A DNA stretch of 25,142 nucleotides from a virus: positions 1-25,142 of the IMG/VR virus record IMGVR_UViG_3300044632_001071; one strand, given 5' to 3'. Position 1 is the first letter of the stretch. Each line of letters starts with the position of its first letter. The translations under genes and the position numbers were made by a program. The notes under the pieces were generated by a model that did no database searches, had not been told where the DNA came from, and saw only the letters and a list, made by a program, of their open reading frames with translations. Positions 16,911 to 25,142 of the stretch are shown here, piece after piece.

Positions 16911-17393
16911 ATGGCAAATCGAATGGGCCCAAGGCCCACACCCACTCACATCCTGAAACTTCGGGGCTCCGAGTTGGCCGCCCAGCGGGATGCGGAACCC
17001 GTGGGCAACACCGATGGAACGCCAACCATGTTCCCGCAGGTGATGGCGTGCGATATCGCGCGGAAGTATTTCGACCGGCTGGTGGATGACCTTCGCGGGT
17101 TGGGGCTGTACGCGGCCGAGGACTATGTGAGCCACAACCATTACGCCCTGGCAGCTGCCGAGTGGGAGAAGGCCGCAGCCATTGTGGAAACCGGCGGGCT
17201 CATTACCGATTCACCGCAGGGCAGGTATCAGAATCCAGCCATCAAGGTGCGCGATGCAGCGCGCGCCGAGGTTGCGCGGCTGTGCCGCGAGTTCGGCCTA
17301 TCCCCCGCCAGCCGCGTGGGCCTGCAATCATCGAAGAAAAAGGGCAATGCCGCGAGCGCCATTGAAAGCATCCTCAAAGCGAAGACCGCCTAA
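16911..17393 (+). CDS. terS: Terminase small subunit, P27 family
   Basis: This 160-residue protein starts at ATG 16911; ATG 16923 is an alternative and no strong ribosome site is visible for either. The opening M-G-P-R-P-T-P-T-H-I-L-K-L-R-G-S (residues 5-20) is the classic start of P27-family small terminases. It is followed by P-x-M, then a helical region with Y-F-D-R-L-V-D-D-L-R-G-L-G-L and a C-terminal stretch with E-F-G-L-S-P-A-S-R-V-G-L, also family-typical. It recognises the packaging site and feeds DNA to TerL. The 3' end overlaps the TerL start by 47 bases. Confidence 0.9.
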   Translation: MANRMGPRPTPTHILKLRGSELAAQRDAEPVGNTDGTPTMFPQVMACDIARKYFDRLVDDLRGLGLYAAEDYVSHNHYALAAAEWEKAAAIVETGGLITDSPQGRYQNPAIKVRDAARAEVARLCREFGLSPASRVGLQSSKKKGNAASAIESILKAKTA

Positions 17394-18987
17394 AGCCGCA
17401 ACCATTGCGGGTTTCAGCGCGGCCAAGACTGCGAGCAAGGGAGACTGGTTCGATGAGCGCGAGTGGGAACGCATCCGCGCGTTCTTCGGCGCGCTGACGC
17501 ATCAAAAAGGCACCTTCGCTGGCCAACCGTTTTCCCTGTTGCCCTGGCAGGAAGACTTCCTAGCCACCTTGTTGTGCTGGAAGCGCGCCGATGGGCGGCG
17601 CAGGTTCACCACCTGCTATGCGGAAATACCACGCAAAAATGGGAAAACGACATTGATGAGCGCGGTGTGTCTGTGGATGCTGCTGTGCGATTCCGAACCG
17701 GGCGCAGAGGTTTACTGCTGCGCCTCAAGCCGCGACCAAGCTGCGGTGTGTGGCGATAGCGCGCGGCAGATGATTCAGGCGAACGCCACACTTGCGGGCT
17801 TGGTGGATGTGTTTCGAAACACGATCACCTACGGGAACAGCAAACTTGAGATTCTGTCCAGCGATTCAGGGACCAAGCACGGCAAGAATCCGTCATGCAT
17901 CGTGTTCGATGAGTTGCATACCTACGACGCAAACGGGCGCGACCTGTATGACGCGATGGTGAGCGGCCAAGGTGCGCGCAGCCAACCGCTGAACCTGTCC
18001 ATCACCACCGCGGGTTCGGATCGGAACAGCCTGTGCTTTGAGTTGCACCAATACGCGGAGAAGGTGCGCGATGGGTTGGTGCAGGATTCCAAGTTCCTGC
18101 CCGTGCTGTTCGGCGCGCCGGTGGACGCGGATTGGACAAGCCCGAAAGTGTGGAAGCAAGCGAACCCCAGCCTGGGCGTGACCATCAGCGAAGAGTTCCT
18201 AGCGACCGAGTGCGCGAAGGCGAAGGAACTACCCGCCTACCAAAACACCTTCCGCACCCTGTACCTGAATCAATGGGTGGAGAGCAGGCGCGCATGGATC
18301 GGGTTTGACACTTGGGCCGCGTGCGCGGCGAAGGGAATCACCGAGGAAGCGTTAGCCGGGCGTGAGTGCTGGGCCGGGCTTGACCTGTCCACCACCACAG
18401 ACCTCACGAGCCTTTCGCTGGTGTTCCCTTCGGATGATGGGTTCATGGATGTGCTTTCCTATTCGTGGTGCCCGGAGGAAGGGATCAAGCGCCGCAGCCG
18501 GTTGGATCGCGCGCCATATCAAGTGTGGGCCGATCAAGGGTGGTTGCGGCCCACGCCAGGTGCGGTGGTGGACTATGACCACGTGGCCGAGTTCATCAGG
18601 CAACTGTGCAAGCGGTTTGATGTGAAGCGCGTTGCATTCGATCCGTGGGGCGCAACGCAACTAGCAACCGGGCTGTTGCGCGAAGGCGTGCCGATGGTGG
18701 AAGTGCGTCAAGGCTTCCGGTCACTTTCGGAACCGTCGAAGAAACTGGAAGCCTTGGTGCTATCCAAAAAACTGCGGCATCCTGACAATCCGCTGATAAA
18801 TTGGGCGGTGAGCAATACGGTCATTGACCAAGATGCTGCCGGGAACATCAAGGCCAGCAAAGAGGCAAGCACCGAGCGCATCGACCCGGTAGCGGCGTTG
18901 ATCAGCGCGCTAGCGGGTTGGATGTTTCAGGGTGAGGAACACATGGGGCCCAGCGTTTACGAAACCAAGGGAATCGAATGGCTCTAA
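17347..18987 (+). CDS. terL: Terminase large subunit (Terminase_1 family)
   Basis: This 546-residue protein is taken to start at ATG 17347 (M-P-R-A-P-L-K) after AGGG; the frame is open further upstream but lies within terS. The ATPase has Walker A P-R-K-N-G-K-T (95-101) and Walker B I-V-F-D-E (185-189), with I-T-T-A-G as the coupling motif. The nuclease domain has G-L-D-L-S (Asp346), A-F-D-P-W-G (Asp432) and R-I-D-P-V-A-A (Asp513), the three acidic ligands of the RNase H-like fold. The length is normal. It pumps DNA into the prohead and cuts it. It overlaps the portal gene by 10 bases. Confidence 0.95.
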   Translation: MPRAPLKASSKRRPPKAATIAGFSAAKTASKGDWFDEREWERIRAFFGALTHQKGTFAGQPFSLLPWQEDFLATLLCWKRADGRRRFTTCYAEIPRKNGKTTLMSAVCLWMLLCDSEPGAEVYCCASSRDQAAVCGDSARQMIQANATLAGLVDVFRNTITYGNSKLEILSSDSGTKHGKNPSCIVFDELHTYDANGRDLYDAMVSGQGARSQPLNLSITTAGSDRNSLCFELHQYAEKVRDGLVQDSKFLPVLFGAPVDADWTSPKVWKQANPSLGVTISEEFLATECAKAKELPAYQNTFRTLYLNQWVESRRAWIGFDTWAACAAKGITEEALAGRECWAGLDLSTTTDLTSLSLVFPSDDGFMDVLSYSWCPEEGIKRRSRLDRAPYQVWADQGWLRPTPGAVVDYDHVAEFIRQLCKRFDVKRVAFDPWGATQLATGLLREGVPMVEVRQGFRSLSEPSKKLEALVLSKKLRHPDNPLINWAVSNTVIDQDAAGNIKASKEASTERIDPVAALISALAGWMFQGEEHMGPSVYETKGIEWL

Positions 18988-20747
18988 TCGACATTCTCCG
19001 CCGCTACTTGGGGCCACAGCCGCCGCGCAGCGAGTACGAAGACAACACACCCATTGGGCAACCCGTTTCGGGTGCGGTGCAGTCCTATGTGTCTTCCTAT
19101 TCGTTCACCGGGTCGAACATCAACCCGCTTACCGCGATGGAGTCCCCAAGCGTGTACGCGTGCGTTCGCCTGATCGCGTCGAGCATTGCGAAGCTGGAGT
19201 GGCAGATTTTGCGCGAGACTCCGGAAGGCAAGGTGGTTGAACCAAACCACCCGCTAGCGAACCTGCTGAATGTGGAGCCGAATGAGGACACCAGCGCGCT
19301 GGTGTTCCGTGAAACGCTGCTAACCAATGCGCTGCTGACCGGAAACGGATACGCGTACATACAGCGCGATGCATCCGGGATGCCCGTTTCGCTTGAACTG
19401 CTGCGGCCTGACATGGTGCAGATGATGCGCGACGGTGCGAACCAGCCCTACATTCAGGTTTACACGGGCAACTACACCGGGAAGGATGCCGAGAAAAAGG
19501 CACGCCGCTTCCGCCCCTACGATGTGTTTCACCTGTGCGGCGCGTCATTTGAGGGGCTGCTGGGCATCGCTCCAATCCACCTGATGCGCGAAACCATCGG
19601 GCTGGAACTGATCGTGCAGGAGTTCGTTACCAAGTATTGGGCCAACAATGCGGTTCCATCCGGCACGCTATCCCTGCCCGGCAAACTGTCCCCCGAAGCA
19701 TCGCAGCGGCTACGCGAAGCCTGGCAGAAGGCCCACAACGCGCGCAACGCGGGCCGCGTGGCGGTGCTTGAGGATGGAATGTCGTACCAGCCGATGGCAT
19801 CGACGATGAAGGATGCCGATTTGGTAGCCATCCGCGAGTTCTGCCGCCAGCAGATTGCGGCGGCGTTCGGCGTGCCTGCGGCGCGCATCGGTTCCACCGA
19901 GGCGCAGAGCTACGCAAGCGCCGAGAGCGGTGATGCCCATCTAGTCAAGCACACACTTAGCAGCTGGGCCACCCGCCTTGAGCAAGAGGCCAGCCGAAAG
20001 TTGATCGTGCGAGGTGCGCCATTCTGCACACGGATTTCGTTTGATTCGATGCTGCGCGCAGAGATGGCGGTGAGGTTCAGCGCCTACAACACGGCGATCA
20101 TGTCCGGGCTGATGAGCCCGAACGAATGCCGCGCGCGTGAAGGTTTGCCAGCGGTTGCAGGCGGCGAGTCCATCCGCCTGCCGCTGAACACGGCCGCGCC
20201 GGAGCCCGCCGCTGGTGGCGTGCCCCCGGCCGAGCCTGTGTCCGCACCGGCCGAGGAAGTGCCCGCCAGCGTTGACCTGGCACCCGATGAAGTGCCCGAT
20301 AGCGTGGATGTTGATCCAGCCGAAGACGAGGCCGGAGACAATGCGAAAAAGTTGATCGCCATCCGCGCGGCGGTGGACGCGGTGCGCCCCGCCATCGAAA
20401 ACGCGTATGGCCGCCACCTGAACCGGGTTTCCGAATACCTGTTGAAGACGCGCACTCAAGCGAAGCTTGACCGCTGGGCACCGCCCATCGATTGCATCGC
20501 GGGTGACCTGCGCGACACCATCACCGGGCTTGGGCGCATCATGGGCGATGAGGGCAAGGCATCCGATGTGCTGAACGCGGCGCTGTTGCGCCACGCTCGC
20601 CACCTGCGCGGCGCTGTCGGGAAAATCGCGGCGCTGTCCGATACGGTCGATGGGTGGAAGCCGCTTCCGAGCGTGGCCACCACCGAACTGCTGGAAATGC
20701 TCGAGCATGAAATTATGCAAACGCCACTACTGGAGGGAAAGCAATGA
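18978..20747 (+). CDS. Portal protein, HK97 family, with long C-terminal extension
   Basis: This 589-residue protein starts at ATG 18978 with AAGGGAA upstream. The N-terminal region has N-P-L-T-A-M-E-S-P-S-V-Y-A-C-V-R-L-I-A-S-S-I-A (about 49-71), then L-L-T-N-A-L-L-T-G-N-G-Y-A-Y-I and L-R-P-D, and a later Q-Q-I-A-A-A-F-G-V-P-A-A-R-I-G. All of these are diagnostic for the HK97 gp3-type portal. The core ends around residue 410. A Pro/Ala/Glu/Asp-rich linker and a helical domain of about 140 residues then follow, which makes it longer than the about 420 residues of HK97 gp3. The extension may carry a scaffolding-like or protease-docking role; that is inference. Confidence 0.93.
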   Translation: MALIDILRRYLGPQPPRSEYEDNTPIGQPVSGAVQSYVSSYSFTGSNINPLTAMESPSVYACVRLIASSIAKLEWQILRETPEGKVVEPNHPLANLLNVEPNEDTSALVFRETLLTNALLTGNGYAYIQRDASGMPVSLELLRPDMVQMMRDGANQPYIQVYTGNYTGKDAEKKARRFRPYDVFHLCGASFEGLLGIAPIHLMRETIGLELIVQEFVTKYWANNAVPSGTLSLPGKLSPEASQRLREAWQKAHNARNAGRVAVLEDGMSYQPMASTMKDADLVAIREFCRQQIAAAFGVPAARIGSTEAQSYASAESGDAHLVKHTLSSWATRLEQEASRKLIVRGAPFCTRISFDSMLRAEMAVRFSAYNTAIMSGLMSPNECRAREGLPAVAGGESIRLPLNTAAPEPAAGGVPPAEPVSAPAEEVPASVDLAPDEVPDSVDVDPAEDEAGDNAKKLIAIRAAVDAVRPAIENAYGRHLNRVSEYLLKTRTQAKLDRWAPPIDCIAGDLRDTITGLGRIMGDEGKASDVLNAALLRHARHLRGAVGKIAALSDTVDGWKPLPSVATTELLEMLEHEIMQTPLLEGKQ

Positions 20748-21262
20748 CCGAAACACGCGCTAGCGGCACCGTCAAACCTTCAACAGATTTGAAGATTCGT
20801 GGTTATGCGGTGACATGGGAGCCGTACACAATGGGCCCCGATTCATGGGAGCGCATCGAACGATCCGCATTTGATGCGGCGCTAGAGTCCCCCGAGGATG
20901 TGGCTTTGCTTTGGAACCATGACACCAGCAAGCCGATGGCCCGCGTGCGCGCTGGGAACCTGCGAATCTTCACCGATGAAACCGGGCTTGGCTTTGAGGC
21001 CACTTTGCCCGATACAGCCGTGAGCCGCGACGCGGTTTCCCTGATCCGTTCCGGCGTGGTGAGCCAATGCTCTTTCGGGTTCCATGTGCGCGGCGAGCGT
21101 TATGAAAAGGCACCCGATGGGAAGCCGCTGCGCGTCATCACCGACGCGAACTTGGTGGAAATTAGCGCGGTGACATTCCCTGCGAACCCTGCCACCAGCG
21201 TGGAGGCGCGCAACGCGCAGCCCGCCGCGCGCAAGCGTTACTACCTGCCACCCGAGATGTAA
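20744..21262 (+). CDS. Prohead protease, HK97 gp4 family
   Basis: This 172-residue protein starts at ATG 20744 (ATGA overlap with the portal). Motifs: I-R-G-Y-A-V-T-W (18-25), L-L-W-N-H-D (His59), S-Q-C-S-F-G-F (Ser110) and L-V-E-I-S-A-V (Glu139), giving the Ser-His-acid triad of HK97-type (herpes-assemblin-like) proteases, followed by T-F-P-A-N-P-A. It cleaves the delta domain from the capsid protein during maturation. Of the two capsid proteins downstream only the second has an obvious delta domain. Confidence 0.93.
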   Translation: MTETRASGTVKPSTDLKIRGYAVTWEPYTMGPDSWERIERSAFDAALESPEDVALLWNHDTSKPMARVRAGNLRIFTDETGLGFEATLPDTAVSRDAVSLIRSGVVSQCSFGFHVRGERYEKAPDGKPLRVITDANLVEISAVTFPANPATSVEARNAQPAARKRYYLPPEM

Positions 21263-21266
21263 TCGG

Positions 21267-21300
21267 TTGCAATTCACCTGCGCGCCCTGATAATGGGCGC
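21267..21300 (+). promoter_or_regulatory. Candidate capsid-operon promoter with a palindrome around the -10
   Basis: TTGCAA (21267-21272, 4 of 6 to consensus) and GATAAT (21289-21294, 5 of 6) are spaced by 16 bases. The -10 lies in the 7-base centre of a perfect inverted repeat, GCGCCC (21282-21287) / GGGCGC (21295-21300). An operator-like palindrome at the -10 suggests regulation. The gap (185 bases) between protease and first capsid gene is one of the largest within the late genes. Confidence 0.5.
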
Positions 21301-21423
21301 AACTGAATACGGCCGCGCGCGTCCTAGTGATGCGCCGCCACCTGTAACGGTTTCCGTTCCGCCCTCGTGGCGCAACTGACCACGCGATTTCTCACCGAAT
21401 CCGCGAGGCTGTGCGCCATGCGC

Positions 21424-21440
21424 CCCTCGCTTTTTGAGGG
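21424..21440 (+). promoter_or_regulatory. Hairpin that sequesters the capsid-1 ribosome site
   Basis: CCCTC (21424-21428) pairs with GAGGG (21436-21440) around GCTTTTT. The GAGGG is also the Shine-Dalgarno sequence, 7 bases before ATG 21448. A 5-bp stem is weak, so it may tune translation rather than block it. Confidence 0.5.
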
Positions 21441-21447
21441 TTGAACT

Positions 21448-22464
21448 ATGGGCGAAACCAAGATCACGCGCGATTCCGATCAATACAGCGACATCTACCG
21501 CACCTTCCTGCGCCGCGGCGCGCGCGGGCTCACCGATGTGGAGGCGCGCGCGCTGACCATCAGCAGCGGCGGCACCGCGCTGGCCCCTACCGCCTGGTCG
21601 AAGTACATCGATACGGAGATCGCAGAAGACGCGATCTTGTCGCGCGTTCAGAAGATCGAAACCCCCACCGCTTTCAATCTTCCGATCTACGCCGAGGATG
21701 CGACGGTGAACACGAATGTGGCCGAGTCCGCATTGGGTACCCAGTCTTCCCCAACCTTCGCCAAGCCTGTGCAGGGCACCACTAGCGGCACCAGCGGCAC
21801 CTATTACACCTTCGCGCAGAAGAAGGTAACCGCGTGGGTGAAGGTTTCCAACGAACTGCTGAACGATTCGAAGGGCGCGCAGGATGTGGAAGAGTTCCTG
21901 CGCCGCGCGCTGGTCGATGGGCTGATCTTTGAGGTGGGCCGCCAAATCCTGATCGGCAACGGCACCAGCGAATGCCAGGGCAGCTTCAACAGCGCGAAGG
22001 GTTACAGCCGCACGGCATCCACCGGCGTGGCCACCACAAACACCATGAAGGATGTGATTTCGGCGGTGTGGGGTTCGACGAACAGCGCCCTGTCCCCGCT
22101 TCCTTATGAATCGTGGATCAACAGCGTGGCCGTGATCAACAGCCGGTTGATGGCATCGTTCGATCCAACTTTCTTCCCGGTGCTGTTCCCCAGCTTCCGC
22201 GGAACGATGGTCAACGGCACCACGGTTGAGGGCTTGCCCACCGTCTACCACCGCTTGAGCGCCACCACCCCGGCCGCCGGTGACACGCTGGTGCATTTCT
22301 TCAACCCTGCCCAGTACCTGCTGGCCCATTCGTTCGGCGCGTTCAGCGTCGCGCGGTACAGCGAAGCGGCGGCCGATACGAACGAAACCATTTTCGTGGC
22401 TTCGATCCGTTGCGATGGATCGATCACCAACAAGTTTGCTGTTTTGAATGTCAACCGCGCCTAG
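21448..22464 (+). CDS. Major capsid protein 1 (HK97 fold, no delta domain)
   Basis: This 338-residue protein starts at ATG 21448. The sequence D-Q-Y-S-D-I-Y-R-T-F-L-R-R-G (11-24), then A-L-T-I-S-S-G-G-T-A-L-A-P-T-A-W (35-50), matches the start of the mature HK97 capsid domain. Further matches are an F-A-Q-K-K-V-T-A-W-V-K-V-S-N-E-L strand, a G-R-Q-I-L-I-G-N-G-T-S-E-C-Q-G spine/A-domain motif, and a final A-D-T-N-E-T (309-314). There is no N-terminal coiled-coil scaffold domain. The neighbouring gene encodes a second, clearly different HK97-fold protein. It may form hexamers or pentamers of a mosaic shell; the division of labour is unknown. Confidence 0.88.
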   Translation: MGETKITRDSDQYSDIYRTFLRRGARGLTDVEARALTISSGGTALAPTAWSKYIDTEIAEDAILSRVQKIETPTAFNLPIYAEDATVNTNVAESALGTQSSPTFAKPVQGTTSGTSGTYYTFAQKKVTAWVKVSNELLNDSKGAQDVEEFLRRALVDGLIFEVGRQILIGNGTSECQGSFNSAKGYSRTASTGVATTNTMKDVISAVWGSTNSALSPLPYESWINSVAVINSRLMASFDPTFFPVLFPSFRGTMVNGTTVEGLPTVYHRLSATTPAAGDTLVHFFNPAQYLLAHSFGAFSVARYSEAAADTNETIFVASIRCDGSITNKFAVLNVNRA

Positions 22465-22512
22465 TGCGCGTTTCAATCTTTGGGCATTCGCACACCGCCG
22501 CGAATGTCCCTG

Positions 22513-22529
22513 CGGGCCGCGTTGGCCCG
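22513..22529 (+). other. 6-bp hairpin between the two capsid genes
   Basis: CGGGCC (22513-22518) pairs with GGCCCG (22524-22529) around GCGTT. It sits in the 101-base gap upstream of a strong ribosome site (AGGAAGGAAG, 22551-22560). No T-run follows. It may act as a processing or stability element between the two cistrons. Confidence 0.4.
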
Positions 22530-22565
22530 AGCGACACGCGGCGGGAATCTAGGAAGGAAGAAACG

Positions 22566-23855
22566 ATGCCAGTCCCCAGTTCATACAAGGCCCTCATTGA
22601 GAAGATGGGTGCGCTCTATCAGGAAATGATGTCGATGGTCGATGGTGCAAACACCAACGGCGGCGAAATGGCCCCCGAGATGGAGGCGAAGTACACCGCC
22701 CTGAAGACCCAGTACGCCAGCCTGCGCAAGCAGCGTGAGCGCAACGAGGAAGTGATGGCAATGGACAACGGCCAGCAGGCCGTGTTCAGCGACATCCCCG
22801 CCGCACCCGAGGTTCGCAGCGCCCAGCGCGCCGAGCGCGCCGCGAAGGTTGGCGAGCGCCGCGAAACCGACGAGTACCGCGACGCGTTCCACAACTACCT
22901 CCGCAACGGCGAACACACCGCACCCGCGGAGCTTCGCGCGCTGACCGAGGCCAGCGGTGGCACCGTGATTCCGCCCACCGAGTTCGACAACCAGCTCGTG
23001 GCCAAGTTGCAGACGATGACGAGCGTTCGCAACCTGGCGCGCAAGCTCTCGCTGGGTTCGTTCGCGCGCGAAGTGGCTTTCGAAAACGCCACGGGTGCCG
23101 CGTACTGGGTTGGTGAGTCCACCGCCCCCACCGAGGCTGCGCCCACCTTCTCCAAGATCACGCTCACCCCGAAGCGCCTTTCGGCCCTTCTGCGCGTGTC
23201 GAACGAACTGGTGGCCGATGCCGATGCCCGCGGCGGCAATATGTCGATTTCGTCGATTGTCACCGAGCAGATGGCACGCGTGTTCGCACAGACCGAGGAA
23301 ACGGCGCTGCTGGCCGCTTCCAATGTTTCCGGCGCTCCTGTTTCGCTGCTGAATGATGCTGCCCTCACCAGCAGCAACACCGGCTCTTTCACGGCGTTCA
23401 CGGCGGAGAAGGTGATCGACTGGATTTACAGCCTGCCCCGCCAGTACCGCCAGCATCCCAGCTGCGCGATCATCGTGAACGATTCGACCTTGGGATACCT
23501 CCGCAAGCTGGCTGGCGTTGGTGGCTCTTCCAACATCACCAACTACTTCTGGGAGAACGGCTACACCAAGGGCGGCAGCGGCCAGGCTCCGGAGCCGGAT
23601 CGCATCCTCGGAATCCCGGTGTACACCAGCGCGGCCATTTCGGCGCTTCCGACGAGCGGCACCACCGCTACCAAGATCGGCATCATCGGCGCGTGGGACT
23701 ACTGCTACTTCGGCACCACGGGCAACTATGAACTGAAGGTGCTGCGCGAGCGTTACGCGGACACGAATGAGACGGGCTACATCGCAAACATGCGTATGGA
23801 TTGCCAGCTCTCGCTCCCCGCCCTGGCGTTCAAGGCTTTCAACGCCAGCACCTGA
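22566..23855 (+). CDS. Major capsid protein 2 (HK97 gp5-like, with delta domain)
   Basis: This 429-residue protein starts at ATG 22566 behind AGGAAGGAAG, the strongest ribosome site seen here. Residues about 1-100 are a helical, charged delta/scaffold domain (K-A-L-I-E-K-M-G-A-L-Y-Q-E-M, L-K-T-Q-Y-A-S-L-R-K-Q-R-E). Then come D-E-Y-R-D-A-F-H-N-Y-L-R-N-G (102-115), A-L-T-E-A-S-G-G-T-V-I-P-P-T-E-F (125-140), L-L-R-V-S-N-E-L-V, I-V-N-D-S-T, I-L-G-I-P-V-Y and A-D-T-N-E-T (398-403). This is the standard HK97 major capsid layout. It is the likely main substrate of the upstream protease and the source of scaffold function. Confidence 0.93.
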   Translation: MPVPSSYKALIEKMGALYQEMMSMVDGANTNGGEMAPEMEAKYTALKTQYASLRKQRERNEEVMAMDNGQQAVFSDIPAAPEVRSAQRAERAAKVGERRETDEYRDAFHNYLRNGEHTAPAELRALTEASGGTVIPPTEFDNQLVAKLQTMTSVRNLARKLSLGSFAREVAFENATGAAYWVGESTAPTEAAPTFSKITLTPKRLSALLRVSNELVADADARGGNMSISSIVTEQMARVFAQTEETALLAASNVSGAPVSLLNDAALTSSNTGSFTAFTAEKVIDWIYSLPRQYRQHPSCAIIVNDSTLGYLRKLAGVGGSSNITNYFWENGYTKGGSGQAPEPDRILGIPVYTSAAISALPTSGTTATKIGIIGAWDYCYFGTTGNYELKVLRERYADTNETGYIANMRMDCQLSLPALAFKAFNAST

Positions 23856-23913: not shown

Positions 23914-24105
23914 ATGACAATGGTTCAAATCCAAATCCTCAAAACGGTTGCCAGCGCCAAGGGCGTTTGGGGGCCGGGCGAGGTGGCTACGGTCGATCCG
24001 GATACCGCGCAGCAGTGGTGCGTGGCAGGCATTGCGGAACGCGTCCACGCGGTTCCTGCTGCGCCTAGCGAGGCACCAAAGCAGAAAGGCCAGGGCAAGC
24101 GATGA
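23914..24105 (+). CDS. Small head-region protein, 63 residues
   Basis: ATG 23914 (or 23920) follows the hairpin; the frame overlaps the capsid-2 gene further upstream, so the start must be here. The protein reads M-V-Q-I-Q-I-L-K-T-V-A-S-A-K-G-V-W-G-P-G-E-V-A-T-V with D-x-D-T-A-Q-Q-W-C-V-A-G-I-A-E-R and an Ala/Pro/Lys tail. A strand, then G-P-G-E-V, then a helix and A-G-x-A is the pattern of a widespread tiny phage protein found near capsid and connector genes; its role is not known to me. Its stop overlaps the fibre start (ATGA). Confidence 0.7.
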   Translation: MTMVQIQILKTVASAKGVWGPGEVATVDPDTAQQWCVAGIAERVHAVPAAPSEAPKQKGQGKR

Positions 24106-25142
24106 AGGGCAATGCGTATGTTCCGTTCATGCTGCGGCGCGGCGATGGCTCCACGCTGTCGCTCGACTTCACCGCGATGGGTGACACGCTTGATAGTCGT
24201 TTCACCTTCACGCGCACCAGCACGGCCACCTTCATCAACTCGCAGGGGTACGTGCAGTTTGCGAATGCAAACTTGATGACTTATAGCAATCCTCGCCAGA
24301 CAGGAGCCGCATGGCTTACGGCTGGAACCGTTACTTGGGGCAGTAGCACACTTACTGATCCAACCGGAGGATCAGCCGCACAGTCAATTACGTTTGGAAC
24401 TACTGGTTCTGCCATTTTCAACACAAGCGGAACTACTGTTGTTTCCGGAATCACGCATACTTTCTCGGTGTGGATGCGTTCCGCAACTGGAACCACGAAT
24501 GTCAGAATCGGAGATGCAAATGTCGGTGGGGTCGCAACGGTAACTCTTACTACGACATGGCAGAGATTCAGTTGCCAGTACACGACATCTGGAACCAATG
24601 ACGGTGGAGCGATTTATAGTCAGACTGGGACACCAAGCGCAGAGTTCTACGTATGGGGCGCACAGGTGCAACCGGGCAGCATTGTTGGGGAACTGATACA
24701 GACAAGCGGAACAATCAACACCAACACCCCTCGATTCGACTACGACCCAACCACGCTGACTCCTCGCGGGCTGCTAATTGAAGGTACTGCAACAAACCTT
24801 GTAACCAATTCGCAGAACATCACAACAGGTACTTGGACCGTCGGTGGAAACACTACCTTGACTGCGAATACCACCGAAGTTACTGACCCTGCGGGTGGAA
24901 ACACCGCAACCAAAATTGCGCTTGCCGCGAGTGCGTATTGTTATAGAGCGCAACTGGTAACGGTTCTAGCAAATACCGCTTACACATTCTCATTTTGGAT
25001 TCGCGGCACAGCAGGATCAACACAGCGAGTTTTCGAGTTTGGCGGTGGCGACTTGGTTTCGCAAACAATTCTCACGTACACGAATACTGGCTGGACTCGG
25101 GTACAGGTTCAATTCACATCGGCAACAATCACCACGATATTT
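24102..25142 (+). CDS. Tail fibre / receptor-binding protein, 5' part (runs off the window)
   Basis: The first 347 residues start at ATG 24102. The N-terminus has L-D-S-R-F-T-F-T-R-T-S-T-A-T-F-I-N and later N-T-P-R-F-D-Y-D-P-T-T-L-T-P-R-G-L-L-I-E-G-T-A-T-N-L-V, a signature of phage fibre and adhesin proteins. Around it lie two jelly-roll carbohydrate-binding-like domains: one with F-S-V-W-M-R-S and W-G-A-Q-V-Q-P-G (about 55-200), one with F-S-F-W-I-R-G (about 240-347, incomplete). Composition is Thr, Ser, Asn and Gly-rich, and the DNA is visibly less GC-rich than the head genes, as is usual for host-range genes. The window ends exactly at a codon boundary. Confidence 0.82.
   Translation, partial: MKGNAYVPFMLRRGDGSTLSLDFTAMGDTLDSRFTFTRTSTATFINSQGYVQFANANLMTYSNPRQTGAAWLTAGTVTWGSSTLTDPTGGSAAQSITFGTTGSAIFNTSGTTVVSGITHTFSVWMRSATGTTNVRIGDANVGGVATVTLTTTWQRFSCQYTTSGTNDGGAIYSQTGTPSAEFYVWGAQVQPGSIVGELIQTSGTINTNTPRFDYDPTTLTPRGLLIEGTATNLVTNSQNITTGTWTVGGNTTLTANTTEVTDPAGGNTATKIALAASAYCYRAQLVTVLANTAYTFSFWIRGTAGSTQRVFEFGGGDLVSQTILTYTNTGWTRVQVQFTSATITTIF

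Follow-up and report, generated by a model that had tools for sequence, protein, structure and literature searches.

The textbook example of a head whose pentamers and hexamers are made by a single protein is that of the HK97-type phages. A second capsid protein of the HK97 fold is, as such, already known from phage T4, from SaPIbov5 and from two-component encapsulins, and as a dispersed duplicate from phage CcrColossus. In T4, gp24 forms the pentamers and is about 20% identical to gp23; 65 residues are removed from the N-terminus of gp23 and 10 from that of gp24 (PMC9958956). SaPIbov5 encodes Ccm, which is 24% identical to the capsid protein (CP) of Staphylococcus phage phi12 and takes the pentamer positions in a T=4 shell whose capsomers make few contacts with one another (PMC8569155). 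Two tandem 'major capsid proteins' have also been annotated in the C. perfringens phage CpP_VarHS (PMC13236511). Literature matches for 'two major capsid proteins' in JBD30 and T7 were discarded, as they reflected wording or frameshift products.

The stretch of DNA analysed here (the window, an IMG/VR virus record of 25,142 bases) encodes two HK97-fold capsid proteins in tandem, MCP1 and MCP2. As in T4, these are two divergent proteins in one phage, the presumed major one with a long N-terminal part and the other with little or none. T4, however, is a large myophage with portal and protease families of its own, whereas the window combines a PF04860 HK97-type portal, an S78 protease and PF05065 capsid proteins in a genome of probably about 25.5 kb, and both its capsid genes are exchanged as cassettes. 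In Pfam, only PF05065 fell within the 0.001 limit for MCP1 and MCP2, which places neither in the gp23/gp24 families. The pair is best explained as a separate case of a T4-like split, evolved independently in an HK97-type phage. The phi12 CP/Ccm pair likewise joins an HK97-type capsid protein with a delta domain to a divergent homologue, but Ccm is satellite-encoded, has a delta domain itself and hijacks helper heads, while MCP1 is a fixed phage gene without delta. Family 2B encapsulins share the two HK97-fold proteins, in mixed shells (PMC12407261), but are cellular compartments of irregular composition and not phage heads. CcrColossus, a Caulobacter phage of the phiCbK group, also has two related capsid genes (gp81/gp36), but there about 21 kb separate the major capsid gene from the second copy, which is not known to have a role (PMC3556154). 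The Rhodobacter capsulatus gene transfer agent (RcGTA), in contrast, uses one capsid protein for pentamers and hexamers of an oblate head (PMC7296036). In the open-licence literature, no universal tandem pair with separate allele exchange was found in small HK97-type siphophages, and this combination seems to be new.

The head module lies on the plus strand, in the order terminase small subunit (TerS), terminase large subunit (TerL), portal, protease, MCP1 and MCP2. The probable TerS (16911-17393) was assigned by position, as the ORF immediately 5' of TerL, and is kept in the relative L027. TerL (17347-18987, start approximate) matched Pfam TerL_nuclease (E 5.8e-50) and TerL_ATPase (E 5.3e-27), the portal protein (18978-20747) Phage_portal PF04860 (E 6.1e-91), and the HK97-type prohead protease (20744-21262) Peptidase_S78 (E 1.3e-40). 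A non-coding spacer of 185 nt (21263-21447), with a single promoter-like match at 21267-21294, separates the protease gene from MCP1 (21448-22464, 338 aa). MCP2 follows at 22566-23855 (429 aa). Both capsid ORFs have ATG starts and Shine-Dalgarno (SD)-like sequences. No Rfam match was found in the region, including the 185-nt spacer, and terminator-like sites were rarer there than in shuffled sequence. We read the window as a near-complete permuted genome with a full size of about 25.5 kb, because its two ends (positions 1 and 25142) mapped to adjacent sites about 344 bases apart in the relative L037.

Both proteins matched PF05065 (Phage_capsid) over nearly the whole model, with 67.5 bits (E 1.6e-18) for MCP1 and 133.1 bits (E 1.6e-38) for MCP2, above the curated cut-off of 24.2 bits, and both matched PHROG 10 'major head protein'. 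AlphaFold2 (AF2) models built from 32-row alignments had pLDDT values of 76 (MCP1) and 73 (MCP2). In Foldseek searches against the PDB they retrieved HK97-fold capsids with probability 1.00 (E 2.3e-12 and 1.4e-16, respectively), HK97 gp5 among them; the TM-scores of MCP1 were moderate (0.40-0.52 by query length). The best sequence match of both among solved structures was the RcGTA capsid protein Rcc01687 (E 1.6e-50 for MCP2, 1.1e-6 for MCP1). A preliminary description, made from the letters of the window, had proposed two tandem capsid genes of this fold, and the models bear it out. The landmarks it had named as common to both were also found: DQYSD at residue 11 of MCP1 and DEYRD at 102 of MCP2, VSNEL at 133 and 211, and ADTNET at 309 and 398. 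The SGGT motif was present as well, but in MCP1 it starts at residue 40 and not at 39 as given.

A delta domain had been ascribed to MCP2 only, in agreement with the models. The predicted scaffold-like domain of MCP2 covers about residues 1-96 (22566-22853), with AF2 helices at 7-30 and 37-70 followed by a low-confidence linker at 67-96. The N-terminus of MCP1 aligned with MCP2 from about residue 92-99 (99 from the alignment, the start by extension). The HK97-type arrangement, a helical delta domain of some 100 residues at the N-terminus and an S78 protease gene upstream, was thus present for MCP2 and absent for MCP1. The same held in the lineage members examined, in which MCP1 started directly behind an SD-like site without delta, and MCP2 had the domain.

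Relatives were collected by IMG/VR scans, using a pattern and tblastn with each protein and with alignments. The resulting lineage comprised 117 distinct contigs, counting the window, all of them from metagenomes. Both capsid genes were present in 103 of the 103 contigs that spanned the site; in the remaining 14, the lone capsid gene adjoined or was cut by the contig end. A deeper scan, queried with the deepest MCP1 group, yielded 33 loci, part of them on contigs of the first set; 28 had both genes, and at the other five MCP1 was near or cut by the contig end. In an independent Pfam search of near-genome-length relatives (14 contigs, 24.9-32 kb), 13 had exactly two PF05065 genes, and in the fourteenth (L096) MCP2 was in pieces through frameshifts. 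The splits over overlapping frames in this MCP2 (L096:5935-7240) and in one MCP1 (L141:1212-2290) are probably sequencing errors. TerL identity within the lineage was as low as 38%, and MCP1 identity as low as 21-25%. The three contigs L100-L102, which are more distant (TerL near 29% in those that have it), had a single capsid gene. The tandem pair thus is not peculiar to the window but marks an entire lineage of tailed phages, small and uncultured. Pattern scans of GTDB species genomes found no prophage or host relatives, and searches of INPHARED retrieved no cultured phage that carries both genes. There, the window MCP1 gave one weak match, to a short record whose one capsid gene branches on the MCP2 side in the tree, and a sister-group MCP1 gave none. 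In one subgroup (L048:7992-9239, also L067, L071, L076 and relatives), MCP1 was longer by an insert of about 75 residues in the E-loop region; the insert contains two Gly/Ser-rich repeats and is probably exposed on the shell.

MCP1 and MCP2 aligned with 29% identity over the best 135 aa (E 3e-12); the ADTNET block aligned as well. In a maximum-likelihood tree of 62 sequences a branch with full support (100/99) divided them, and the capsid proteins of other phages that have only one grouped with MCP2. On this evidence MCP2 resembles the ancestral type of capsid protein, and MCP1 appears to be old, duplicated or acquired before the sampled lineage arose; the long branches of the tree do not separate these two origins. 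The low identity, the old separate clades and the pair in all spanning contigs rule out an assembly artefact or a recent duplication, as the preliminary description had argued. Both genes are under purifying selection, with dN/dS values in three close groups of 0.08-0.12 for MCP1 and 0.12-0.17 for MCP2. A redundant leftover copy with no separate role would fit the fact that gene duplications are common and that CcrColossus has a diverged second copy elsewhere in its genome (PMC3556154), but a dN/dS of about 0.1, zero losses in 103 contigs and the old clades make it hardly credible.

The tree also bears on which protein forms the bulk of the shell. MCP1 could be the hexamer protein, with MCP2 in the minority, as a nucleator or penton whose delta domain acts as a scaffold in trans. 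MCP1 precedes MCP2 in the operon and is also well codon-adapted (of the 15 window genes tested, MCP1 ranked highest and MCP2 second, and the margin was small), and a few delta domains could in principle suffice. However, where other phages have a single capsid protein, it groups with MCP2 and not MCP1, and MCP2 identity follows that of the portal. In some relatives the SD sequence is stronger at MCP2 (7-base matches occurred at MCP2 only), and in T4 and the phi12 CP/Ccm shell the longer N-terminal part belongs to the hexamer protein. We consider this reversed assignment improbable.

MCP1 and MCP2 are each exchanged independently as cassettes between related phages. Between L107 and L106, MCP2 was 97%, the protease 98% and the portal 90% identical, but MCP1 only 33%; between L107 and L114, the values were 95% for MCP2, 97% for the portal and 32% for MCP1. 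The breakpoints were sharp. In L106/L107, the DNA was about 76-97% identical right up to MCP1, and identity went from about 90% to 30-50% across MCP1 and to about 100% in the spacer ahead of MCP2, which in the window measures 101 nt (22465-22565). Long repeats common to both spacers, as possible drivers of the exchange, were searched for and none were found. The reverse case was seen in L083/L084, with MCP1 at 86%, portal and TerL at 96-97%, and MCP2 at 58%, its delta domain being kept at 87%. When L098 and L099 were considered as well, the MCP2 delta domains were 87-89% identical and the mature parts only about 50%, with a breakpoint near the delta/mature junction. Over the lineage, MCP2 identity correlated with portal, protease and TerL identity at r 0.85-0.89 (portal 0.89), and MCP1 identity at r 0.43-0.52 (portal 0.43); the pairs are non-independent and the coefficients descriptive.

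Divergence within MCP1 was concentrated in the predicted A domain, the stretch from the spine helix to the final strands (residues 187-279 in window numbering, 22006-22284; limits approximate, from the order of predicted elements), in three sister groups. In these, the ratio of A-domain divergence to that of the rest was 3.75, 2.68 and 1.83 for MCP1 versus 1.16, 0.87 and 1.30 for MCP2, with approximate domain limits. Where MCP2 was 95-97% identical, MCP1 A domains differed at more than 70% of aligned positions (about 20% identical). This hypervariability is a trait of the three sister groups and of MCP1 only; the window's own group, with an MCP1 ratio of 0.86, lacks it.

In HK97-type shells, the A domains meet at the capsomer centres and the P domains join capsomers, as established and as seen in the phi12/Ccm structure (PMC8569155). 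These contacts can be set against a mixed shell without fixed places, in which MCP1 and MCP2 would share capsomers in variable composition. The folds of the two are alike by Foldseek, and the Family 2B encapsulin shows that two HK97-fold proteins can co-assemble in this way (PMC12407261). Neighbours within a capsomer touch through their A domains, however, and mixing should couple MCP1 to MCP2, yet MCP1 A domains diverge that far beside a nearly constant MCP2. The allele swap at constant MCP2, together with A-domain divergence confined to MCP1, argues against mixing within capsomers, and we regard such a shell as unlikely.

The portal of a siphophage is ringed by five hexamers (PMC11445458). 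Since MCP2 has retained the delta domain and varies together with the portal, MCP2 hexamers with MCP1 pentamers are the best model. T4 gp23/gp24 and phi12 CP/Ccm serve as direct precedents for a split of this kind. The pairing throughout the lineage, the purifying selection and the top codon adaptation of both genes also speak for a shared shell. The preliminary description had left several options open; the best fit among them is a mosaic shell in which the two proteins are split between hexamers and pentamers, and we give a probability of about 0.6 to a single mosaic head of this composition; the presence of both proteins in the virion, the homomeric capsomers and the placement of the pentamers are inferred here from the genes. 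MCP2 would be made with its own delta scaffold domain, later removed by the S78 protease, and would form hexamers and drive assembly around the portal. MCP1, without delta, would begin roughly at the predicted start of mature MCP2. Its capsomers would be homomeric and inserted among those of MCP2; they would most likely be the pentamers of the eleven vertices that do not hold the portal. Such a pentamer would contact MCP2 only at its periphery, which would explain how a very different MCP1 allele can take over while MCP2 stays unchanged. It would follow that the MCP2 delta domain serves the whole shell.

Some observations run against the mosaic shell. The window's own group has no hypervariable A domain, and the exchange of MCP2 at constant MCP1 in L083/L084 means that the interface tolerates change from both sides. 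Because Ccm has a delta domain, a missing one is not diagnostic of a penton protein. HK97 itself has a T=7 head and a genome of about 40 kb. Scaled from these values with the capsid scaling exponent of 0.71 (PMC8814770), a genome of 25.5 kb gives, as a rough estimate, T near 5. Lying between T=4 and T=7, this value could point to a head that is elongated or unusual in some other way.

MCP1 might also act outside the normal shell, by redirecting head size or shape, making an alternative head, or countering capsid-sensing defences or capsid-remodelling satellites. Ccm is a capsid protein homologue that alters head shape (PMC8569155), and cassette exchange and A-domain hypervariability resemble an arms race. 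Yet MCP1 is obligate in every spanning member, always at the same locus and in line with the other structural genes, and it sits inside a complete TerL-portal-protease-capsid module, not in a satellite that lacks the rest of the head module. A Ccm-like redirector would, moreover, itself sit in the shell and merge with the mosaic model. We give little credence to a role outside the shell. A function in diversity can be proposed more tentatively than the mosaic shell itself: MCP1 may be an interchangeable protein dedicated to the vertices (or to another homomeric capsomer) and maintained so that the head 'serotype' can switch, through whole-allele exchange and, in several lineages, through a hypervariable exposed domain at the capsomer centre. 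The benefit would perhaps be an escape from host defences that sense capsids or from satellites that hijack them. Such a function is possible, but we hold it to be doubtful.

If the mosaic model is true, a large natural siphophage lineage never uses one protein for both capsomer types. The natural pairs, with one partner up to 70% different and the other constant, form a test set for what a pentamer must share with a hexamer, and let one ask whether a delta domain can serve a delta-less partner. They also raise the question of why a capsid gene is so strongly exchanged or diversified.

Just 3' of the capsid genes lies an adhesin-like gene (24102-25142, 3' open) with a CBM_4_9 domain and a match to PHROG 5939 tail protein. 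Between it and MCP2 is an ORF of 63 aa (23914-24105) with no family match; L027 has one of 69 aa in the same place. A coupling of the MCP1 allele to the adhesin-like gene was considered and rejected: L107 and L114 differ in MCP1, yet are mostly more than 85% identical downstream. The GC3 of the adhesin-like gene was 0.50, versus about 0.74 elsewhere. In relatives its N-terminus is conserved and the C-terminal parts are exchanged, and its product could be a head or tail fibre.
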